A stretch of 64,000 nt of DNA from Anaerolineaceae bacterium. Lineage in GTDB: Bacteria > Chloroflexota > Anaerolineae > Anaerolineales > UBA11657. A program made the position numbers and the translations under genes. This document shows, one piece after another, positions 21,435-35,904 of this stretch (its first letter is position 1; every line of letters starts with the position of its first letter). Below the pieces are notes generated by a model. It was not told the origin of the DNA. It did not search any database and was given only the letters and a program-made list of their open reading frames with translations. Location of the stretch: assembly GCA_003569365.1 (NCBI GenBank), contig BGOS01000011.1, positions 1-64,000 on the forward strand. The letters run 5' to 3'.

Positions 21435-23342
21435 ATGGCTGCCCGCGCCATCTGCTGCCGGCGCGCTGCCGCGCTGGCAATTGCGTTTGCGCTGGCTGCT
21501 TGCAGCGCCCCGCCGCCCACCGCTGCCGTTGTGGCCACTGCACTGCTGCAGCCCACAGCCACGCCGGTTCCGCCCACCGCGGCTCCCGCTGCGCGTGTAC
21601 TCACCATCTGCCTCGAAAATGAGCCCGCGTCACTCTACATTTTTTCTGAAGCTGGCCGCGGCTGGAACCACGTGCAGGAAGCGCTGCGCGATGGACCCAT
21701 CGACCGGCGCAGCTTTGGGCGCCAACCCGTTATTTTGGAAAGCCTGCCGGATTGGGAGAACGGCGATGTGACGCTGGAGAGTGTGCTGGTGGAGCCGGGG
21801 GCCGGGCTGGTGACAGCCGATGGCGACCTTGACCGGCTGGCAGCGGGCGTACCGTATTGGACTCCGGAGATGGAGCGCGTGCTGGCCCAGGCGGACAAAG
21901 CCGTCACTACCATTCAAGTGCGGGTCACGTTCCGCTTGCGGGCCGATGTGCGCTGGTCGGACGGCGCGCCGTTGACGGCGGATGACTCCGTGTTTGGTTT
22001 TGAGATTGGCTCGGCTGCGGCCACACCCGGCTCCAAGCTGGCGGCATGGCGCACCGCCAGTTACAGCGCCAGCGCCGAGCACACCATCAGCTGGGTGGGG
22101 CAGCCGGGCTACTACCCCGCAGATGTGCTGGAGCATTTGGCGGAGCCGCTGGCGCGCCACGCGTATGGCAATTTGGATGCGGCGCAGCTGCTGACAGATG
22201 AACAGGCAAACCGCGCGCCACTGGGCTGGGGTGCGTTCCAAGTGGCGCAATGGGAGCCGGGGTTGCTGCGCCTCGTGCGCAACAAATATTATTTTCGTGC
22301 AGCCGCGGGCCTGCCGCGTGTGGACGAGGTGCACTTTGTTACGCTGGCGGATGAGAGCGCGGCGCTGAGCGCAGTGGCCGGTGGCGAATGCCAGATTGCG
22401 GTGCGCGACAGCTGGGAGGCATGGGAAGACAGTGCCGATGCGCTGCTGGCTGCCCAGGCCAGCGGGCAGCTGGCAGTGCAACTGGTGCCGGGTCCGGTGC
22501 TGGAGCAGCTGGGCTTTGGTATTTTGATGGCGCCCGGCTTGCAGCGCAAAGCCGGCACAGACTTGTTTCAGGCAGTGCCGCTGCGGCGGGCGCTGGCGCA
22601 CTGTGTGGACCGCGAAGCACTGGCAGCCGCAGCCCAGTGGGGCCAGGGCAGCGCAGCGGCCGGCTTTGTGCCGGCGGCGCACCCACTGCAGCCGGCGCCG
22701 GCAGGCAGCGCGCTGCCGGCATACGATGTGCAGCGCGGACAGGCTTTGCTGGATGCTGCGGGTTGGCTGCCGGCGGTTGACAGTGGCGTGCGCTATCGGC
22801 AGGGCCGCGCGCTGCGCTTGCGCTATGCGGTTAATTTTCCGCTCTCCAACAGCGGCTTCCTGCGCCAGGCTGTGGCCGAGCTGCTGCGCACGCAGCTGCG
22901 CGCCTGCGGCGTAGACCTGCAAGTGCAGCCCTTCGCCAGCACGGATTTATACGGTGAGTTCCCGGCCGGTGTGTTGTTTGGGCGCCAGTTTGATCTGGCG
23001 CAGTTTGCGTGGCTGCAGCCGGGCGAGCCGCGCTGCGAGCTGTTTACCAGCGCGGAGCTGCCCGGCCTGACCAACCCCGGCGGCAGCAATTACACCGGCT
23101 ATCGCAGCGCAGCTTATGACAGCGCCTGCAGCACGGCGCGCTTTGCGCGCACTCAAGCGGCAGCGCGGGCAGCCCATTGGGCTGCGCAACAGCTGCTGCT
23201 GGATGAGCTGCCCGCGCTGCCTTTGTTCTTCCGGCTGCGCATTGCGGTGGCGCAGCCCGGCGTGCGCGGGCTGCAGCTGGATGCCTCGCAGCCCTCGCCG
23301 TTGTGGAACATTGAGGAGCTGGACTTCGCTGCGCCTTCTTGA
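21435..23342 (+). CDS. ABC transporter family-5 solute-binding lipoprotein, 635 aa
   Basis: This is an extracytoplasmic binding protein for peptides or oligosaccharides. The signal ends in lipobox LAAC. The domains run in the usual order: N-lobe ENEPASLYIF (about residue 60), VRWSDGAPLTADDSVF (about 170), the core block PLRRALAHCVDREAL (about 385), then GQALLDAAGWL and a C-terminal WNIEELDF. No permease or ATPase is adjacent, so it may feed the transporters downstream or act as an orphan. It lies 14 bases after the HtrA-like protease and converges with a hypothetical membrane gene. The ligand is unknown. Confidence 0.85.
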   Translation: MAARAICCRRAAALAIAFALAACSAPPPTAAVVATALLQPTATPVPPTAAPAARVLTICLENEPASLYIFSEAGRGWNHVQEALRDGPIDRRSFGRQPVILESLPDWENGDVTLESVLVEPGAGLVTADGDLDRLAAGVPYWTPEMERVLAQADKAVTTIQVRVTFRLRADVRWSDGAPLTADDSVFGFEIGSAAATPGSKLAAWRTASYSASAEHTISWVGQPGYYPADVLEHLAEPLARHAYGNLDAAQLLTDEQANRAPLGWGAFQVAQWEPGLLRLVRNKYYFRAAAGLPRVDEVHFVTLADESAALSAVAGGECQIAVRDSWEAWEDSADALLAAQASGQLAVQLVPGPVLEQLGFGILMAPGLQRKAGTDLFQAVPLRRALAHCVDREALAAAAQWGQGSAAAGFVPAAHPLQPAPAGSALPAYDVQRGQALLDAAGWLPAVDSGVRYRQGRALRLRYAVNFPLSNSGFLRQAVAELLRTQLRACGVDLQVQPFASTDLYGEFPAGVLFGRQFDLAQFAWLQPGEPRCELFTSAELPGLTNPGGSNYTGYRSAAYDSACSTARFARTQAAARAAHWAAQQLLLDELPALPLFFRLRIAVAQPGVRGLQLDASQPSPLWNIEELDFAAPS

Positions 23343-24331: not shown

Positions 24332-26158
24332 ATGAAAAACAGAAACTGGAGTTTGATGGCACTGGGTGCGCTCGCCACTGGCGCGCTGGTGCTGGGCGCC
24401 TGCCAGCCGCAGGTGGTGGAGAAGGAAGTGGTTGTTACGCAGATCGTTGAGAAGACCGTTGAGAAAGAAGTTGAGAAGATTGTGGTGGCCACCGCCGTGC
24501 CGGTGGAGAAAACCAAGTTGCTGCGCGTCAATCTGGGCACTTACCCGGATTTAATTGATCCGCAAAAGTCCTCGTTTGTGAACGAGATTGCGCATCTTAA
24601 TAAGTTCTATGAAGGCTTGACCCGCCTCGACGCCAAGCTGGTGACCGTGCCGGCAGCGGCTGAAAGCTGGGCCTACAACGCCGATGCCACCGAGCTCACC
24701 TTTGCGTTGCGCGCCGGCCTGATGTACAGCGACGGCTCCGTGCTCAACGCCAAGCGCTTTGAGTATTCCATCATCCGCAACATCAACCCCGCCACAGCTG
24801 GCGAATACGCTACGATCACAAATGAGATCATGGGCGCGCCGGACTGGCAGGACAATACGGCGGCAGCCGGCGAAGAGACTGATGCAGCCAAAAAGGCTGC
24901 TGCCGAGAAGGCGGCTGCTGAGGGCGAGGCGAATGTTCGCGCCAGCGTACAGGCGCTGGGCAAAGATGGTGCACCGTGCGCCGATTACGAGCAGGCAGAC
25001 TGCCTCACACTTAAGCTAAAGCTGTCCAAGTCCGCACCGTACTTCCACACCATCATGGGCTTGTGGGTCACTTATCCGGCCAAGGAAGAGAACATTGACG
25101 CGGGTGGCGACCAATGGTGGAACAGCTCCAAGTATCAGGTGGGCAATGGCCCGTACGTGCTCAAGGCGCTGGAGCCTTTTGTGCGCGCATCCTTTGTGCC
25201 CAATGCCAACTACTGGGGTGACCAGGCCATGACAGCGCTGGAGTACTCCTACATCACAGACTCGGCAGTGTCCTTTCAGGCCTACCAGAACAATGAGTTT
25301 GATGTGGTTGGCCTTTCAGCCGAAGACTTAAAGACCGCGCAGGCGGATGCCAACCTGAGCAAGGATATCAATGTCTATCCCGGCTCTTGCACAACGGCGC
25401 TGCAGTTTAGAAACTTCACCAAGCCGTTTGATGACGCGCAGGTGCGCGCAGCGTTCTCCTATGCGCTGGACCGCGAGCGCTGGGTAAAGGACGTGCTGAA
25501 GGGCCTTGGCTCACCCGCGCTGACATGGATTCCACCGGGCTTCCCGGGCTTCAAAGAAGGCGAGACGCGCTTTGCTTACGATGCTGACAAGGCCAAAGCT
25601 GCCATTGCAGCAAGCACCTACGGCTCGGTGGACAAACTGCCGCCGATTGTGCTGAGCTTTGGAGATACGCCGCGCAACCGCACCCGCTACGAGTGGCTGG
25701 GGCAGCGCTTTGCCGAAGTGTTTGGCACCGGCCTGAAGCTGGAACTGAACCCGATTGAGCCGACTGCCTTCACCGCCATGCAAAAGGACAAGAAGAGCAC
25801 CCTGCAAATGTTCATCGGCGGCTGGTGTGCCGACTATCCGGACCCCCAGAACTGGCTGAGCGTTTACTTTAATGGCAGCACCTCTTTTGCTTCGCGCATC
25901 GGGTTTGCAAACGCGGAGTTTGATGCACTCACGGTGCAGGCGGATGTGGAGCTGGATAACGCCAAACGCGCAGACTTGTATCAGCAGGCGCAGGACAAGC
26001 TGGTAGATGCCAACCCAGTCGGCTTCTTCTGGAACAACGTCAACAGTTACCTTGTCAAGCCATGGGTGTCTGGTTACAACAAGACCCCGCAAGACGCGGG
26101 CTATCCCGGCGACATCACGCCGCAGACAATTGATATCGATCTTGCGCAAGTGCCCTAG
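24332..26158 (+). CDS. Peptide-type ABC transporter solute-binding lipoprotein (family 5), 608 aa
   Basis: The ATG at 24332 follows a strong GGAGGAGA. The signal ends in lipobox LGAC, giving a lipidated Cys followed by QPQVVEKEVVVTQIVEK and a repeated Val-Glu-Lys linker typical of Chloroflexota. The order is canonical: N-lobe LLRVNLGTYPDLIDP, then LTFALRAGLMYSDGSVLNA, GNGPYVLKALEPF, the core block DAQVRAAFSYALDRERWV and the C-terminal lobe (FIGGWCADYPDPQNWLSVYF). An Ala/Glu/Lys-rich helix is inserted near residues 180-210. Two permeases follow after a perfect hairpin. It probably binds oligopeptides. Confidence 0.92.
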   Translation: MKNRNWSLMALGALATGALVLGACQPQVVEKEVVVTQIVEKTVEKEVEKIVVATAVPVEKTKLLRVNLGTYPDLIDPQKSSFVNEIAHLNKFYEGLTRLDAKLVTVPAAAESWAYNADATELTFALRAGLMYSDGSVLNAKRFEYSIIRNINPATAGEYATITNEIMGAPDWQDNTAAAGEETDAAKKAAAEKAAAEGEANVRASVQALGKDGAPCADYEQADCLTLKLKLSKSAPYFHTIMGLWVTYPAKEENIDAGGDQWWNSSKYQVGNGPYVLKALEPFVRASFVPNANYWGDQAMTALEYSYITDSAVSFQAYQNNEFDVVGLSAEDLKTAQADANLSKDINVYPGSCTTALQFRNFTKPFDDAQVRAAFSYALDRERWVKDVLKGLGSPALTWIPPGFPGFKEGETRFAYDADKAKAAIAASTYGSVDKLPPIVLSFGDTPRNRTRYEWLGQRFAEVFGTGLKLELNPIEPTAFTAMQKDKKSTLQMFIGGWCADYPDPQNWLSVYFNGSTSFASRIGFANAEFDALTVQADVELDNAKRADLYQQAQDKLVDANPVGFFWNNVNSYLVKPWVSGYNKTPQDAGYPGDITPQTIDIDLAQVP

Positions 26159-28237: not shown

Positions 28238-28294
28238 CTGCGTGTACAGTGCCGGCGCCCGCTGCGCGCAGCCGCGCGCGTGGCTTGCCGCGCT

Positions 28295-29278
28295 ATGAGC
28301 GCTGCCACAACGCGCCAGATTCCACCCGCACTTAAGCCGGGGGATTGCGTGGCCTTTGTGGCGCCCGCCAAACCGGTTGCGCCCGCAGCCTTGGAATCCG
28401 CTGTGGCCCTCTTGCAAAGCTGGCAGCTAAGCAGCACCATGCGCTGGCTGCCGGCAGCTGCGCGCGGCTATCTGGCGGGCGAGAGTGATGCAGCGCGCGC
28501 TGCCGCCCTGCAGGGTGCGCTGCTGGATCCGCAGGTGCAGGCGCTGTGGTGCGCGCGCGGCGGCTACGGCACCACGCGCCTGCTGCCGCTGCTGGACTGG
28601 CAGCGCCTGCGCCGCGAAGCAACCTGCAAAATTGTGACGGGCTACAGCGACATTACCGCCTTGCATCAGGCGCTGGCGCTGGAGCTGGGCTGGGTCAGCT
28701 TTCATGGCCCGGTGGCGGCGCTGGCCGTGCTCGGCGCGGAGGCGCCGGACTTTACGCGCAGTCATTTGCACCGGGCGTGGACGCAGCGCACACCCCTGGG
28801 CGCGCTGCCCGTGCCAGCTGCCGCGCAGGGCTGGCAGCAGCCGGTGCAGGTAGTGTGCAGCGGCAGTGGCCACGGCCCGCTTGTGGGCGGCAACCTGAGC
28901 CTGCTGGCTGCCCTCAGCGGCACGCGCTGGCAGCTGCGCAGCAGCGGCGCGCTGCTGCTGCTGGAGGACGTGGATGAGGCGCCGTATCGCATTGACCGCA
29001 TGCTCACCCAGCTGCTGCAGGCGGGCAGCCTGTCCGGCTGCAGCGGCGTGGTGTTTGGTGCATCGCCCGCGTGCGAGCAGGCGGCCAGCCCCGCCGCTTC
29101 GCTGTCGCTGCTGGAAGTGCTGCAGGATTTACTGGCGCCGCTGCAGGTGCCGGTTGTGTACGGCTGGCCCGTTGGCCACACGGCCCACCAATGGACACTG
29201 CCGTTGGGCACCGATGCTACTTTGGTGGCAGCACCTGGCCAGGCAAGCCTGGCTGTTACCGCGGGCGCGGTGTCTTGA
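28295..29278 (+). CDS. LD-carboxypeptidase (peptidase family S66), 327 aa
   Basis: This is a serine peptidase of the LdcA/MccF family, which cleaves the terminal D-alanine from muropeptide tetrapeptides or related amide bonds. The nucleophile elbow is GYSDIT in KIVTGYSDITALHQ. RGGYGTTRLLPLLDW and GGNLSLLAALSGT are family motifs. ILL-type LLLLEDVDEAPYRIDRML carries the catalytic Glu region, and WPVGHTAHQWTLPLG the His. Together with peptide permeases directly upstream it suggests uptake and recycling of murein peptides (inference). ATG 28295 is used rather than the TTG at 28280. Confidence 0.88.
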   Translation: MSAATTRQIPPALKPGDCVAFVAPAKPVAPAALESAVALLQSWQLSSTMRWLPAAARGYLAGESDAARAAALQGALLDPQVQALWCARGGYGTTRLLPLLDWQRLRREATCKIVTGYSDITALHQALALELGWVSFHGPVAALAVLGAEAPDFTRSHLHRAWTQRTPLGALPVPAAAQGWQQPVQVVCSGSGHGPLVGGNLSLLAALSGTRWQLRSSGALLLLEDVDEAPYRIDRMLTQLLQAGSLSGCSGVVFGASPACEQAASPAASLSLLEVLQDLLAPLQVPVVYGWPVGHTAHQWTLPLGTDATLVAAPGQASLAVTAGAVS

Positions 29279-29439: not shown

Positions 29440-31398
29440 ATGAAGAGTTCAAATCGGATTTCCATCCTGCTAGCCTGCACCACAGTGGCGGCGCTTGTGC
29501 TGGGCGCCTGCCAGCCACAGATTGTTGAGAAAGAAGTGGTCGTAACGCAGATCGTTGAGAAGACCGTTGAGAAAGAAAAGATTGTAGAAAAAGAAAAAAT
29601 AGTTGAGGTGACGAAGGAGGCTTTCACCACGCCGCACCCGATTCTGGGTGAATTGATGGTGCGCCAGGCAATTGCCCATTGCACCAACCGGCCGGAGGTA
29701 ATTGCCTCCGTGTACGGCTGGCTGGATGACAAAGCCGCTATTCTGATGGATACCAACATCCCCACCAGCCATTGGGCATACACCAAGCCAAAGGTGCAGT
29801 ACGCTTTTGATGTTGCCAAGGGCGGGGCGTTGTTGGATGAGGCCGGCTGGAAACTCGGCGAAGGCGCCAGCTACCGCGCAGATGCGGATGGCAACGAGCT
29901 TGCATTGCGCTTCACGACCACAAGTGCCCAGTTCCGCCAAACGTGGGCTGCCGTATTTGAGGCGGACATGAAGGCCTGTGGCATCCGCGTGGTGCGCTTG
30001 CACGCGCCGGCCTCGTGGTGGTTCGGTGATACCACCGGCCTTGCGCGGCGCGATTACGAGCTGGGTGCTTTTGCCTGGGTTGGCGATGCTGACCCCGGTG
30101 GCCAGTCTTTGTATGCCTGTGACAAGATCCCGCTGCCAAGCAATGGCTGGGAAGGCCAGAACGGGATGGGCTGGTGCAATGAAGCGGCAAGCAACGCCAT
30201 CAAAGCTGCCAACAACACGCTGGACCGCGCAGAGCGCGTCAAGCAGTATGCGCTCTTCCAGGAAATGTTTGCGGCCGACATGCCAAGCCTGCCGATGTTT
30301 AACCGGGTGGAGGTGAACGCCACCGCCAAAGATCTGGCTGCCTTTGACCCGCGCCCCGGGCAGCCGTACCCCACCTATAACATTGCGGACTGGGAGCGCC
30401 CCGGCGAAACAACCCTGGTCCTGGCGCTTTCTCAGGAACCGGCTTCGCTTTTCACACTGGTGGAGAACGCTTTTGTGGCTAGTTTGGCCAGCTCCTTGAT
30501 TAACGGTGTTGGCATCACCAGCTTGGACTATGACTTCGCAGCCAATCTCTACTTTAAAGAACTGCCTACACTGGAAAACAAGGGCGCCTTGCTGGTGGCG
30601 GCGGATGTGAAGGACGGCGACAAAGTTGTCAACGCCAAGGGCGACGTGGTGGAACTAAAGAGCGGTGAAATGATCCGCGTGGTGGACGCTGCCGGCGACC
30701 TGCCGCTGTACGGCGATATAAAGCTCAAGGAGATTGAGTACACGGGCGGCGGTGCCAAGATGCCACAAATGACAATGAGCTGGACGCTTGAGAGCGGCCT
30801 CAAGTGGTCGGATGGCAATCCGCTGGTGGCGGCAGATATTGAGCTGGCGTCGAAAATTACGTGTGACCCGGAATCGGGCGCGACTGATTTCACGGTTTGC
30901 GAACGCACGGCCAAGGAAACTTTCGGGGACACCGCATACAGCATCGCGCTGATGCCGGGCTATACCCCGCCGCTTTACTTTTCGATTGGACCGGGCTGGT
31001 ACCCGGCGCACCGCAAGTTGAGCGACGGCCGCAAGCTGGCGGATGTGCCGGCCAAAGAGTGGACAACGCTGCCGGAGATTGCGGAAAGCCCGATCGGACT
31101 GGGACCGTACACCATCACAAAGTGGGAGAAGGGTGTTTCCATGTCCTTCGCCGCCAACCCCAACTTTTATAAGGGCAAGCCCAAGACTTCTAACATTACG
31201 ATCAAGATTGTGCAGGACACCAACCAGGCGGTGGCGCAGCTGCTGACCGGTGAGGTGGATGTGGTGTTTGGCGAGACGCTGGGTGCCGGCGAGGAAGTGG
31301 CCACTGTGAAGGCGGCTGCGGACAAAGGCGATGTGAAGGTCTTCTTCACCCCCAGCGCCACGTGGGAGCACGTCGACTTCAACTTCAACACCAAGTAA
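29440..31398 (+). CDS. Circularly permuted family-5 solute-binding lipoprotein, 652 aa
   Basis: The lipoprotein signal ends at LGAC with QPQIVEKEVVVTQIVEK and a Val-Glu-Lys linker. The halves of the fold are then in reversed order compared with the family. Residues about 61-320 are the normal C-terminal half: HPILGELMVRQAIAHCTNR (core block at residues 74-84), GGALLDEAGWKLGEG, YELGAFAWVGDADPGG, MFAADMPSLPMFNRVE. Residues about 326-652 are the normal N-terminal half: LVLALSQEPASLFTLVENAF, LKWSDGNPLVAADIELA (455 on), GLGPYTITKWEKG, VAQLLTGEVDVVFG, ending THVDF-like WEHVDFNFNTK. Nothing essential appears lost. It is first gene of a complete importer operon. The ligand is unknown. Confidence 0.88.
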   Translation: MKSSNRISILLACTTVAALVLGACQPQIVEKEVVVTQIVEKTVEKEKIVEKEKIVEVTKEAFTTPHPILGELMVRQAIAHCTNRPEVIASVYGWLDDKAAILMDTNIPTSHWAYTKPKVQYAFDVAKGGALLDEAGWKLGEGASYRADADGNELALRFTTTSAQFRQTWAAVFEADMKACGIRVVRLHAPASWWFGDTTGLARRDYELGAFAWVGDADPGGQSLYACDKIPLPSNGWEGQNGMGWCNEAASNAIKAANNTLDRAERVKQYALFQEMFAADMPSLPMFNRVEVNATAKDLAAFDPRPGQPYPTYNIADWERPGETTLVLALSQEPASLFTLVENAFVASLASSLINGVGITSLDYDFAANLYFKELPTLENKGALLVAADVKDGDKVVNAKGDVVELKSGEMIRVVDAAGDLPLYGDIKLKEIEYTGGGAKMPQMTMSWTLESGLKWSDGNPLVAADIELASKITCDPESGATDFTVCERTAKETFGDTAYSIALMPGYTPPLYFSIGPGWYPAHRKLSDGRKLADVPAKEWTTLPEIAESPIGLGPYTITKWEKGVSMSFAANPNFYKGKPKTSNITIKIVQDTNQAVAQLLTGEVDVVFGETLGAGEEVATVKAAADKGDVKVFFTPSATWEHVDFNFNTK

Positions 31399-31490: not shown

Positions 31491-32687
31491 ATGACTAATT
31501 ACCTGATCCGCCGCAGCGCCCAGATGCTGGTGGTGCTGTTTTTTTCCGCACTGGCGTCCTATGCTTTGCTGAGCGCGGCTCCCGGCGGGCCGCTGCAGGG
31601 TTTGCTGCAGCAAACGCAATCCAGCACCCGCAAAATTGACAAGGAAGACATCGCGCGCATTCGCGCGCAATTTGAACTGGACCTGTACTTTTCTGTGCGC
31701 TTCACCCGCTGGCTGGTGGGCGTGCCGCGCGGCCCGCTTTCCATTGGTGGCCGCGGGCTGCTGGGGGACGTGGTGGTGGGCTGCCGCATTCCGATTGAGG
31801 CCGTGGTGCGCAGCGGCGGCGAAGACACGCTGCAGACCGTGGGCTGCGAGCAGTACGTTTATATGCGCGATCTGGCCGGCCGCCGCACCAGCCGCGGCAT
31901 CATTGTGGGCGACTTTGGCAACTCGTGGGCCATCCTGCGCGACCGCCCGGTATCAGAACTGATTTGGTCGCGTTTGCCGCGCACCCTCGAGCTGCAAATT
32001 GCGGCCACGCTGATCTCGCTGCTGATCGGCGTGCCGCTGGGCCTGTATTCGGCGGTGCGCCAATACTCGCGCTTTGACTACATTGCAACCACCGGCTCGT
32101 TCATCGGGTCGTCCATGCCAACTTTTTTCTTTGGCCTGATTCTGATTCTGGTTTTTTCAATTCTGTTCAAGCGCGCGGGCTGGGCGTATCTGCCGCCGGG
32201 TGATGCGGCCGGCGTGCGCGCGTACACCATGCCGCTGCTGGGCCGGGTGGAAGCGCAGAGCCTGCTCGACCAGACGCTGCGCATGATCATGCCTGTTACC
32301 GTGCTGGTGCTTGTGAGTGTGGCCGGCTGGAGCCGCTACGTGCGCGCCAGCATGCTGGAGGTGCTGCGCATGGATTATGTGCGCACGGCGCGCAGCAAGG
32401 GCGTGCGAGAGCGCCTTGTGATTATTCGCCACGCCATGCGCAACGCTCTGATCCCCTTCATCACGATTGTTGTGTTTGCGCTGCCGGGTGCTTTTGGCGG
32501 TGCCGTCATCACAGAAACGGTTTTCAACTGGCCGGGCATGGGGCGCCTGTTTGTGGATGCGCTTGGCCGCAATGACTATCCTGTGACCATGGCAATCCTG
32601 CTGATATCGGCTGTGCTGACCGTGCTGGCCACGCTGCTTTCAGATGTGCTTTATACCGTGGTGGATCCACGCATTCGCGTTAGTTAG
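31491..32687 (+). CDS. ABC transporter permease, DppB/OppB type, 398 aa
   Basis: NYLIRRSAQMLVVLFFSALA and SAAPGGPL mark the start of a DppB-type permease. The protein is about 65 residues longer than the paralogue at 26231 because of an extended periplasmic loop (residues about 70-150, with cysteines in VVGCRIP and QTVGCEQYV). The EAA loop is DYVRTARSKGVRERLVIIRH, and VLYTVVDPRIRVS is the normal end. The second permease follows after 11 bases. The longer loop may fit the rearranged binding protein, but that is speculation. Confidence 0.9.
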   Translation: MTNYLIRRSAQMLVVLFFSALASYALLSAAPGGPLQGLLQQTQSSTRKIDKEDIARIRAQFELDLYFSVRFTRWLVGVPRGPLSIGGRGLLGDVVVGCRIPIEAVVRSGGEDTLQTVGCEQYVYMRDLAGRRTSRGIIVGDFGNSWAILRDRPVSELIWSRLPRTLELQIAATLISLLIGVPLGLYSAVRQYSRFDYIATTGSFIGSSMPTFFFGLILILVFSILFKRAGWAYLPPGDAAGVRAYTMPLLGRVEAQSLLDQTLRMIMPVTVLVLVSVAGWSRYVRASMLEVLRMDYVRTARSKGVRERLVIIRHAMRNALIPFITIVVFALPGAFGGAVITETVFNWPGMGRLFVDALGRNDYPVTMAILLISAVLTVLATLLSDVLYTVVDPRIRVS

Positions 32688-32698
32688 GTTTACTCCAA

Positions 32699-33697
32699 AT
32701 GTCCACCACCACCCAAACTGCGCCTGTGCTGCACTCCGAGGCCATGCCGGTGGAACAAAGCCAGCTGCGGCTGATTGTGCGGCGCTTTGCGCGCCATCGC
32801 TTGGCGGTAGTCTGCAGCGCGCTGCTTGTGTCTATCTTTCTGCTGGCGGGCGCGGTCAGGGCGCTGGTGCCGTTTGACGCCACGGAGATTGAAGTGGGCA
32901 ACAGCTTTGCTGCGCCGTTTTCTGTGTCGCTCAAAGATGGCCGCACGCATTATCTGGGCACGGACCATCTGGGCCGTGACTATTGGTCGCGCATTCTATA
33001 TGCGGCGCGCATCTCGCTCACGGTTGCTGTCGTGTCGGTGATCGGCTCCACTGCGGTGGGGGCGGTGGTGGGCGCCCTGTCCGGCTATTACGGCGGTGTG
33101 CTGGACGACATCCTGATGCGCTTTGTGGAGTTTCTGCTTACCATCCCGACACTGCCAATTTTGCTGATCCTCTCGTCCATCTTGCTGCAAAGCCCAAAGG
33201 CCGTGCCCGTGCCGGACTTTATCATCAACGGACTCTCCGGATTTATGTACATCTCCGCCCTCGAGGCGCGCCAAGTGGTGATGATCATGCTGGTGCTGAT
33301 GTCGCTGGGCTGGCTGGGCATTGCGCGCCTGACGCGCGGTGTGGTGCTTTCGCTGAAGACCATGAACTTTGTGGAAGCCGCGCGCGCGGCTGGCGTTTCA
33401 AACACGCGCATCATCCTGCGCCACATGATCCCCAATGCGTTTGCGCCGCTGGTGGTATCCGCCAGCCTGGGCCTTGCCGATTATGTGATCAGCGAGGCGG
33501 CGCTGAGCTTTCTGGGTTTTGGCATCCAGGATCCCACGCCCACCTGGGGCAACATGCTCAGCTTTACCGAGAGCTATATGTTCGAGCATCCGTGGCTGCC
33601 GCTCATTCCCGGCCTGCCCATTTTCATTTGTGCGCTGGCATTTAATTATGTGGGCGACGGGCTGCGCGATGCGCTTGACCCGCGCCTGCAGTTGTAA
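32699..33697 (+). CDS. ABC transporter permease, DppC/OppC type, 332 aa
   Basis: LRLIVRRFARHRLAVVCSAL gives the OppC-type start, THYLGTDHLGRDYWSRILYA the family signature and NFVEAARAAGVSNTRIILRH the ATPase-contacting EAA loop. The end GDGLRDALDPRLQL matches the paralogue at 27242. It shares the operon with the permuted binding protein and the DppB-type permease upstream. A gap of 122 bases precedes the ATPase genes. Confidence 0.92.
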   Translation: MSTTTQTAPVLHSEAMPVEQSQLRLIVRRFARHRLAVVCSALLVSIFLLAGAVRALVPFDATEIEVGNSFAAPFSVSLKDGRTHYLGTDHLGRDYWSRILYAARISLTVAVVSVIGSTAVGAVVGALSGYYGGVLDDILMRFVEFLLTIPTLPILLILSSILLQSPKAVPVPDFIINGLSGFMYISALEARQVVMIMLVLMSLGWLGIARLTRGVVLSLKTMNFVEAARAAGVSNTRIILRHMIPNAFAPLVVSASLGLADYVISEAALSFLGFGIQDPTPTWGNMLSFTESYMFEHPWLPLIPGLPIFICALAFNYVGDGLRDALDPRLQL

Positions 33698-33819: not shown

Positions 33820-34887
33820 GTGATTTCAACAAAGACCACCAACGGTTCCGCGCCCGTCAACGGCGCTGCGGACATTGTGCTGGAGATCAAGAATCTCAAA
33901 ACGCACTTTCACACCGAGGATGGCGTGGTGAAAGCGGTGGATGGCGTGGACTTTTTTGTGAAGCGCGGCGAGGTGCTGGGCTTGGTCGGCGAGTCCGGCT
34001 GCGGCAAGAGCGTCACGTGCTTCTCCATTTTGCGCCTCGTGGGCGCGCCCGGCAAAATCCTTGATGGCGAGGTTATCTTTGAAGGGCGCGACCTGCTGCA
34101 GCTGGCGGAGCGCGACATGGTGAAGGTGCGCGGCGACCGCATCGCGATGATTTTTCAGCAGCCGCAGTCTTCATTAAACCCCGTGTTCAAGGTGGGCGAC
34201 CAGATTGCCGAATCGCTGACCACCCATCGCGGCCTCAAGTACAAGGAAGCATGGCAGCGCGCAGTGGACTTGATGGAGTTGGTGGGCATCCCGGACGCGG
34301 GCCGGCGCGCGCATTCGTATCCGCATGAGTTGTCGGGCGGCATGGCGCAGCGCGTGATGATTGCAATGGCGCTGGCGTGCGAGCCTGAGCTGCTGATTGC
34401 CGATGAGCCGACAACCGCGCTGGACGTGACCATTCAAGCGCAAATTTTGGACTTGATGCGCAGCCTGCGCTCCAAAACTAATTCCGCCATCATTCTCATC
34501 ACGCATGACTTGGGCGTGGTGGCAGAAATGTGCGAACGCGTGGCCGTCATGTACGCCGGTCAGATCATCGAGCAGACGGATGTGGAAAGCCTGTTTGACG
34601 GCCCCAAGCATCCCTACACGCAGGGGCTGATTGGTTCTGTGCCGGTGCTGGGGGAAGTGCGCGAGAAGCTGGACACCATTCCCGGCACGGTGCCGAGCCT
34701 GATTGACCTGCCGCCGGGCTGCCGGTTTGCACCGCGCTGCCGCGCGCGCACCGAGCACAATCTGGAAATATGCACGCGCGTTGAGCCCGCGCTGCATCCG
34801 GTTACCGCCGGGCACACCGTGCGCTGCTGGCTTTACCAAGAAGCTGAGGGCCACAAAGCGCCGCTGGCGCCAGGCAAGGAGCGCTAG
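33820..34887 (+). CDS. Peptide ABC transporter ATPase, DppD/OppD type, 355 aa
   Basis: This ATPase powers import. Walker A is GESGCGKS, the signature is [15 protein letters not shown], and Walker B is [12 protein letters not shown] followed by the switch His in LITHD. The C-terminal oligopeptide/dipeptide-transporter domain has the iron-sulfur-type cysteines in [13 protein letters not shown] and near the end (ICTRVEPAL). The GTG start at 33820 follows GGAGG. The stop is directly followed by the ATG of the partner ATPase, so the two are translationally coupled. Confidence 0.93.
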
Positions 34888-35904
34888 ATGAACGCTGTAA
34901 GCACCCAGACAAACGGCGCCAACGGCAGCGCCCAAAGCCCCAAAAAACTGCTTGAGGTCAATAACCTCGTCAAACATTTTCCGGTGCGCGGCGGCTTGCT
35001 GCAACGCGTAGTGGCGCAGGTGCGCGCGGTGGAGGATGTGAGCTTCCACATTTATGATGGCGAGACGTTCGGGCTGGTGGGCGAGTCCGGCTGCGGCAAG
35101 ACAACCGTGGGCCGCACCATTTTGCGGCTGGTGCCGGCCACTGGCGGCTCGGTCACTTTTGAGGGCCAGGATGTGTTTGCCGCCAACCCGCGCCAGCTAA
35201 AGCAGCTGCGCCGCAACATGCAAATCATCTTTCAGGATCCGTACTCCTCGCTGGACCCGCGCATGCCGGTGGGCGAAAGCATTGGCGAGGGCTTGCTGGT
35301 GCATGGCATCGGTACGCGCGCGGAGCGCTTTGAGCGCGTGATCCAGACTTTGCGGAGCGTGGGCATGCAGGAATATCACGCGCGCCGCTACCCGCATGAA
35401 TTCTCCGGCGGCCAGCGCCAGCGCATCGGCATTGCGCGCGCTTTGGCACTGCAGCCCAAGTTCATCGTCTGCGACGAGCCTGTGTCCGCGCTGGATGTGT
35501 CCATTCAGGCGCAGGTGCTCAATATTCTGCAAGATCTGCAGGCTGAGTACAAGCTCACCTATTTGTTTGTGGCGCATAACATGAGCGTGGTGGAGCATAT
35601 TGCCGACCGCGTGGGCGTGATGTATTTGGGCAAGCTGGTGGAGGTGGCGCCGCGCGGCGAGCTGTTCCGCAATCCGCGCCATCCGTATACCAAGGCGCTG
35701 ATGTCCGCTATCCCGGTGCCGGACCCGCGCCTGAAGCGCGAGCGCATCATTCTAAAAGGGGATGTGCCCAGCCCGCTCAAGCCGCCGGCCGGCTGCCGGT
35801 TCCACACGCGCTGCCCGGAAGCCATCGAGCGCTGCAAAACAGAAGAGCCGCTGCTGCGCGAGACCAGCACCGGCCACTGGACCTCCTGCCTGCTTGTAAA
35901 TTAG
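34888..35904 (+). CDS. Peptide ABC transporter ATPase, DppF/OppF type, 338 aa
   Basis: This is the second ATPase of the importer. Walker A is GESGCGKTT, the Q-loop region [14 protein letters not shown] is typical of OppF, and the signature is [15 protein letters not shown]. Walker B is [12 protein letters not shown] with the switch His in VAHNMSVV. The C-terminal transporter domain has [18 protein letters not shown]. It forms a pair with the upstream DppD-type subunit, giving a complete binding-protein, permease and ATPase set from 29440 to 35904. Confidence 0.94.

Follow-up and report, generated by a model that had tools for sequence, protein, structure and literature searches.

A naturally circularly permuted family-5 solute-binding lipoprotein conserved across Chloroflexota, with an unpermuted sister

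The open reading frame at 29,440–31,398 (+ strand, 652 codons for amino acids) of the window, the 64,000-nucleotide stretch of Anaerolineaceae DNA analysed here, raises the question of whether a family-5 solute-binding protein (SBP) can occur in nature with its two halves in swapped order. An earlier note, made from the letters of this DNA, had placed the core block near residue 74 instead of in the middle of the protein, and an N-lobe block near residue 455 instead of about 170. It had named a family-profile search, structure prediction of residues 61–652 and a survey of Chloroflexota genomes as checks, and a normal order of the halves or a misassembly as outcomes that would speak against it. 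Both landmarks lie where the note put them: VRQAIAHC occupies residues 74–81 and LKWSDG residues 454–459, versus positions near 384 and 174 in the neighbouring SBP P0002 (21,435–23,342, + strand), which serves as the normal-order control in the window.

The gene is a naturally circularly permuted family-5 (PF00496, cluster C) solute-binding lipoprotein. An hmmscan search of the 652-residue protein returned PF00496 (SBP_bac_5) alone, with a score of 153 bits (cut-off 32.4), in two stretches of swapped order; the best stretch aligns residues 445–650 with profile positions 18–209, so that the profile begins in the C-terminal part of the protein. The SBPs at 21,435 and 24,332 in the window each match the same profile in a single, normal-order stretch. 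A sequence search of the PDB found its best match in 2d5w, where query residues 433–648 correspond to chain residues 72–309 and query residues 71–316 to chain residues 324–580, and where the motif ..AIWEHIDIN stands just ahead of the position matching the cut. Once rotated, the permuted sequences align in register and end to end with normal-order relatives. The canonical chain order of N-lobe, C-lobe and N-lobe is present in the control and absent here; with the C-lobe half preceding the N-lobe half, the protein is therefore a permuted variant of the family and not an ordinary member.

The chain, encoded throughout on the + strand, opens with a lipoprotein signal peptide (residues 1–24; 29,440–29,511) carrying the lipobox LGAC at residues 21–24, with predicted lipidation at Cys24, and continues into a charged linker of VEK/EKE repeats (residues 25–61; 29,512–29,622) that tethers the C-lobe half. 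The signal and linker thus stand on the new N-terminus, as the earlier note had read them, and the lipobox cysteine column is kept in 50 of 53 aligned relatives. Among these relatives Cys81, 180, 227, 246 and 475 are invariant, and Cys487 is present in 52/53. The C-lobe half (residues 62–320; 29,623–30,399), delimited by the profile split, the 2d5w alignment, the predicted model and the rotated alignment, is the C-terminal part of ordinary members and contains hinge strand 2 (about residues 283–296). At the fusion joint (30,386–30,414), located by alignment with unpermuted sisters, the old C-terminus (..YNIADW) meets the old N-terminus (TTLVLALSQEP) through a loop of ~5 residues, ERPGE. The N-lobe half (residues 321–652; 30,400–31,395; profile split, model and rotated alignment) carries hinge strand 1 (about residues 632–646) at its end, followed by the new C-terminus NFNTK. 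The signal peptide and linker (window 29,440–29,600) are 65% identical over residues 2–53 to the start of the neighbouring normal SBP at 24,332 (24,332–24,490), and it is possible, judging by this similarity, that the anchor module was exchanged locally with that gene.

An AlphaFold2 model of residues 61–652 (m63cb232fc236), built from 36 aligned permuted sequences, reached a pLDDT of 82.4 and a pTM of 0.81. Models were compared with PDB structures by VIA-align, with the two halves of the permuted model matched separately. Model residues 260–582 match 1xoc 18–265 (Z 20.6, rmsd 2.5 Å over 243 residues), 5isu (Z 20.6, rmsd 2.2 Å over 238) and 2d5w 1–301 (Z 19.9, rmsd 2.9 Å over 262), and model residues 5–232 match NikA 3e3k_B 256–473 (Z 17.7, rmsd 3.0 Å over 197). 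The control model (pLDDT 88.1) aligns as a whole chain in one piece, matching 5isu over 471 of 488 residues at Z 31.2. The structural check thus places the permuted protein half by half, and in swapped order, on DppA/OppA/NikA-type structures; with both halves matching family-5 structures at Z 17.7–20.6 and a whole-chain pTM of 0.81, a cluster C fold is predicted. The long terminal strand of the model (572–586) corresponds to hinge strand 347–361 of the control, and model strand 223–236 to control strand 594–606; hinge strand 1 thus runs out at the new C-terminus. Because that strand ends freely, hinge 2 would be the sole remaining covalent crossover between the lobes, to judge from the chain order.

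The swapped order is not confined to this genome, which holds one permuted copy. More than 60 related proteins share it, and permuted relatives at about 47–92% identity occur at 25 named loci, nearly all from Chloroflexota going by their record titles, two of them broken or truncated. The survey found the gene in 43/400 sampled Chloroflexota genomes (22/225 genera) and in 19/150 sampled genomes of the class; two other Chloroflexota families have it in 37/41 and 21/26 genomes, and its carriers include the single-contig genomes G127, G143 and G175. Because the order is conserved across the phylum, the chance of a random origin is negligible. Within the genus dN/dS is 0.09–0.12, and it is well below 1 in both halves; by this sequence measure the permuted gene is kept by purifying selection. 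A scan of 84,980 species with six short peptide patterns found no permuted members outside Chloroflexota, and a plasmid collection held no record covering 80% of the query. The permuted gene in a record titled Singulisphaera sp. (L015) closely resembles those at Roseiflexaceae loci and matches the query at the identity seen for L017; on that likeness the record is probably a mislabelled bin.

Several permuted copies depart from the common form. Frameshifted genes occur at L076 (G247) and L035/L075 (G271), in one case in a genome assembled as a single contig, and may be either sequencing errors or pseudogenes. Two half-genes meeting at the joint (one locus, denoted both L035 and G271) had been considered as a natural split or evolutionary intermediate and proved to be a frameshift instead. 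A permuted paralogue of 816 residues at L079 (1,032–3,482) lacks a lipobox and bears an extra C-terminal domain ending LYLPIINR, which owing to the permutation sits on the end of the hinge strand. In a degenerate paralogue at L080 (928–2,073) the N-lobe is deleted and hinge strand 2 is joined straight to the hinge strand 1 motif (LRSNATVWEHIDFN), with a C-terminal domain after that motif ending QVFLPMVMR.

The origin of the arrangement can be followed in normal-order relatives that retain the uncut junction: L133/L139 (G557), L140 (G587) and the partial L137/L143 (G464). In L140 the junction reads ..SATWEHLDFNLFAR-TNKDATERK-TPHPVLGDVKVRQAL.., and permuted proteins end in ..TWEHxDxNLFxK/R and start with (F)TTPHPILGDxRVRQAI. 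Comparison of these ends with the sister junction indicates that about 9 residues, those between '..DFNLFAR' and 'TPHPVLGD' in the nearest unpermuted sisters, were lost at the cut, which is the ~9-residue loop after the first hinge strand. At the other end, the joint YNIADW-ERPGE-TTLVLALSQEP compares with a sister C-terminus of WNIAEWEKG* and a mature start of ADTLIIGMSQEP. The earlier claim that the halves were swapped without loss is therefore close to the truth, though not strictly correct, as ~9 residues are gone at the cut and the old signal and linker have given way to the ~5-residue joint.

In separate maximum-likelihood trees of the N-lobe and C-lobe halves, the permuted proteins form one clade (100/100 and 100/99), and L139 with L140 is its sister in both (N-half 95/97, C-half 99/90). 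The shared unpermuted sister points to a single origin, with one gene as the parent, and duplication and fusion of that gene in a single ancient Chloroflexota event is strongly supported by the sequence comparisons; the earlier proposal of duplication, fusion and trimming is borne out. One normal-order SBP gene would have been duplicated in tandem, once, in an ancestral chloroflexotan, and the C-lobe half of the first copy would have been fused to the N-lobe half of the second, with trimming afterwards. The cut would have fallen in the short loop that follows the first hinge strand, and about 5 residues would have bridged the former termini, which both lie in the N-lobe. A recent tandem duplication of the local neighbour of the 21,435 type was rejected, as that gene is sister in neither half-tree. 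A first tree set had put the permuted clade outside most sampled normal-order proteins because the true sister was still missing from the sample, a placement superseded once L133/L137 were found.

The permuted gene heads an operon for an Opp/Dpp-type importer with two permeases and two oligo_HPY ATPases. An OppB/DppB-type permease of 398 residues (31,491–32,687; PF00528 and PF19300), an OppC/DppC-type permease (32,699–33,697; PF00528 and PF12911), an OppD/DppD-type ATPase (33,820–34,887; ABC_tran and oligo_HPY, best NCBIfam match OppD) and an OppF/DppF-type ATPase (34,888–35,904; ABC_tran and oligo_HPY, best NCBIfam match DppF/OppF) follow it on the + strand. OppB-, OppC-, OppD- and OppF-type genes follow the permuted SBP in nearly all loci with enough flanking sequence; the exceptions to this order are L029, L033 and L034, together with the divergent paralogues. 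In related operons without a permuted gene a normal SBP occupies the same slot (L112, L114, L115, L117, L120). The permuted SBP would thus feed its own importer and support working transport. Anaerolineae operons often contain a second, normal-order SBP, either before (L126, L127) or after (L124, L125, L128) the transporter genes, and relatives of the SBP at 21,435 adjoin the permuted gene in several of them.

By analogy with importers of the Opp/Dpp type, which suggests oligopeptides, the ligand may be peptide-like. Arg383 of the DppA dipeptide clamp corresponds to Thr160 here (Thr in 50/53 of the family), and normal as well as permuted relatives have Thr at that position; neither group clearly conserves Asp436. 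The ligand class therefore draws no support from these residues, and dipeptide specificity, considered on the basis of the clamp, was set aside. The protein scores 43.7 bits against the NCBIfam DppA model, whose cut-off is 1005, which places it outside the DppA (dipeptide) equivalog. An S66 LD-carboxypeptidase gene (28,280–29,278) lies directly upstream, between two peptide-type ABC operons; this neighbour is conserved in the genus (L009–L012) and not beyond the genus in the loci seen, and hints at a gene context that would fit uptake of cell-wall peptides.

A second change accompanies the permutation. Permease alignments reveal a clade-specific extracytoplasmic insert in the OppB-type permease (residues 78–134; 31,722–31,892, + strand). 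It contains Cys98 and Cys119 and is flanked by the stretch matching the DppB scoop on one side and by the GDFG motif on the other. A two-cysteine insert of 50–62 residues is present in 54/54 permease rows of permuted operons (the window being counted twice) and in 2 found later, versus 0–20 residues at this site in permeases of normal-SBP operons, the L085/L114 lineage excepted. In that lineage (G381 permease, L114 5,530–6,717) an unrelated 53-residue two-cysteine insert occupies the same place in a normal-SBP operon, possibly an independent convergence. No comparable insert was evident by eye in permease C. The permease of the unpermuted sister operon L148 (8,487–9,551) has 10 residues at the site and no insert, and it branches just outside the clade of permuted-operon permeases (91, clade 99). 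The permutation and the insert therefore map to one branch and, since that branch is shared, their association is a single coincidence and not a repeated correlation. In E. coli, DppA is contacted on both lobes by the DppB scoop, which closes off the cavity (PMC12136057), so an insert beside the scoop plausibly touches the SBP. The two-lobed cleft would still form, the lipid tether would enter the C-lobe rather than the N-lobe, and the partner permease would have gained a cysteine-paired outer loop by its SBP-docking scoop on the same branch as the permutation; the docking face was thus probably remodelled. The insert lends circumstantial support to the earlier suggestion of a possible difference in the face presented to the permeases.

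Other readings of the locus fare differently against this evidence. That the order is an assembly or annotation artefact, with misjoined binding-protein genes, is a practically negligible prospect: the window genome is a 30-contig assembly, but the same full-length collinear order recurs in single-contig genomes as well as in dozens of independent assemblies, nearly all relatives open with their own lipoprotein signal, and misassembly, one of the outcomes the earlier note had set against itself, is ruled out by this recurrence across the phylum. It is highly improbable that the protein is a sensor, chaperone or surface protein that keeps the fold and is not the nutrient SBP of the importer. 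Divergent paralogues without adjacent permeases would suit such a role, as would L079, with its added domain and missing lipobox, and the one-lobed L080, but the main clade, including the window gene, directly precedes OppB, OppC, OppD and OppF at nearly all loci with sufficient flank. A chimera whose halves came from two different, already diverged SBP genes is very improbable as well, despite the unequal identity to L133/L139 (C-lobe half 46%, N-lobe half 30%) and the frequent occurrence of SBP genes in tandem, given that L139/L140 is sister in both half-trees with the support cited above.

For docking alone, a neutral permutation has somewhat less than an even chance. Here the permutation would have been fixed by drift with fold and transport cycle unchanged, and the permease insert would be unrelated. 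The old termini lie together, which makes a permutation cheap, the predicted halves are close to canonical ones, and the likewise permuted TpMglB-2 retains glucose binding and closure (PMC4990184); yet an insert with a conserved cysteine pair arose on the same branch and is found in all permuted operons examined, and almost every member of two families has kept the gene. The stronger proposal, that docking and release are altered through a single co-evolved arrangement made up of the permutation and the cysteine-paired permease loop, is tentative and rather unlikely. If true, it would combine a C-lobe-tethered SBP, a free-ended hinge strand and a remodelled scoop, unlike any characterised type I ABC importer.

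The nearest known relatives are of normal order. Unpermuted Chloroflexota SBPs of the L139/L140 type belong to the same subfamily (C-lobe half 43–46% identical), and L139 heads the same SBP-B-C-D-F operon, but they have ~9 extra residues at the cut loop, and the permease of the L139 operon lacks the insert. The Thermus thermophilus HB8 oligopeptide-binding protein 2d5w (cluster C), the best solved sequence match to both halves, shares the hinge-strand motif ..WEHIDIN and, unlike the permuted protein, has the normal chain order. E. coli DppA, OppA and NikA (family 5, cluster C) share the predicted fold of each half and the importer type; they differ in chain order, and the DppA clamp residues are unconserved here. 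Natural permutation is known in another binding-protein class: Treponema pallidum Tp0684 (TpMglB-2), with its relatives assigned to 'Type Ic / Cluster Bc', is a permuted glucose-binding lipoprotein (PMC4990184). It too is a tethered ABC-importer binding protein, and in both cases the permutation marks a family and not a one-off. TpMglB-2, however, is a cluster B protein with a type I fold and four interlobe crossovers; its break lies inside the N-lobe and a fourth crossover was added, whereas here the break is at the hinge and one crossover was probably removed, and its permuted part may come from another gene. Cluster C homology and the other break position place the present protein outside Type Ic / Cluster Bc. 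No description of a permuted family-5 SBP was found in the open-licence PMC papers searched.

Taken as a whole, the explanation of a functional, circularly permuted family-5 SBP that serves its own importer, arose by a single duplication and fusion and docks on a probably remodelled face is very likely correct. Most sequence models and structure aligners follow chain order, so a permuted protein yields a pair of half matches and goes unrecognised; further permuted binding proteins may hide likewise. Permuted binding proteins for biosensors are usually made by hand, and the break point offers a ready natural template for such designs. It is rare to find a naturally permuted family and its unpermuted sister both surviving, in operons of one type and with the cut located to within a few residues, and the pair provides a natural experiment on what a Venus-flytrap importer owes to its covalent hinge, to the lobe that is tethered and to its docking face.
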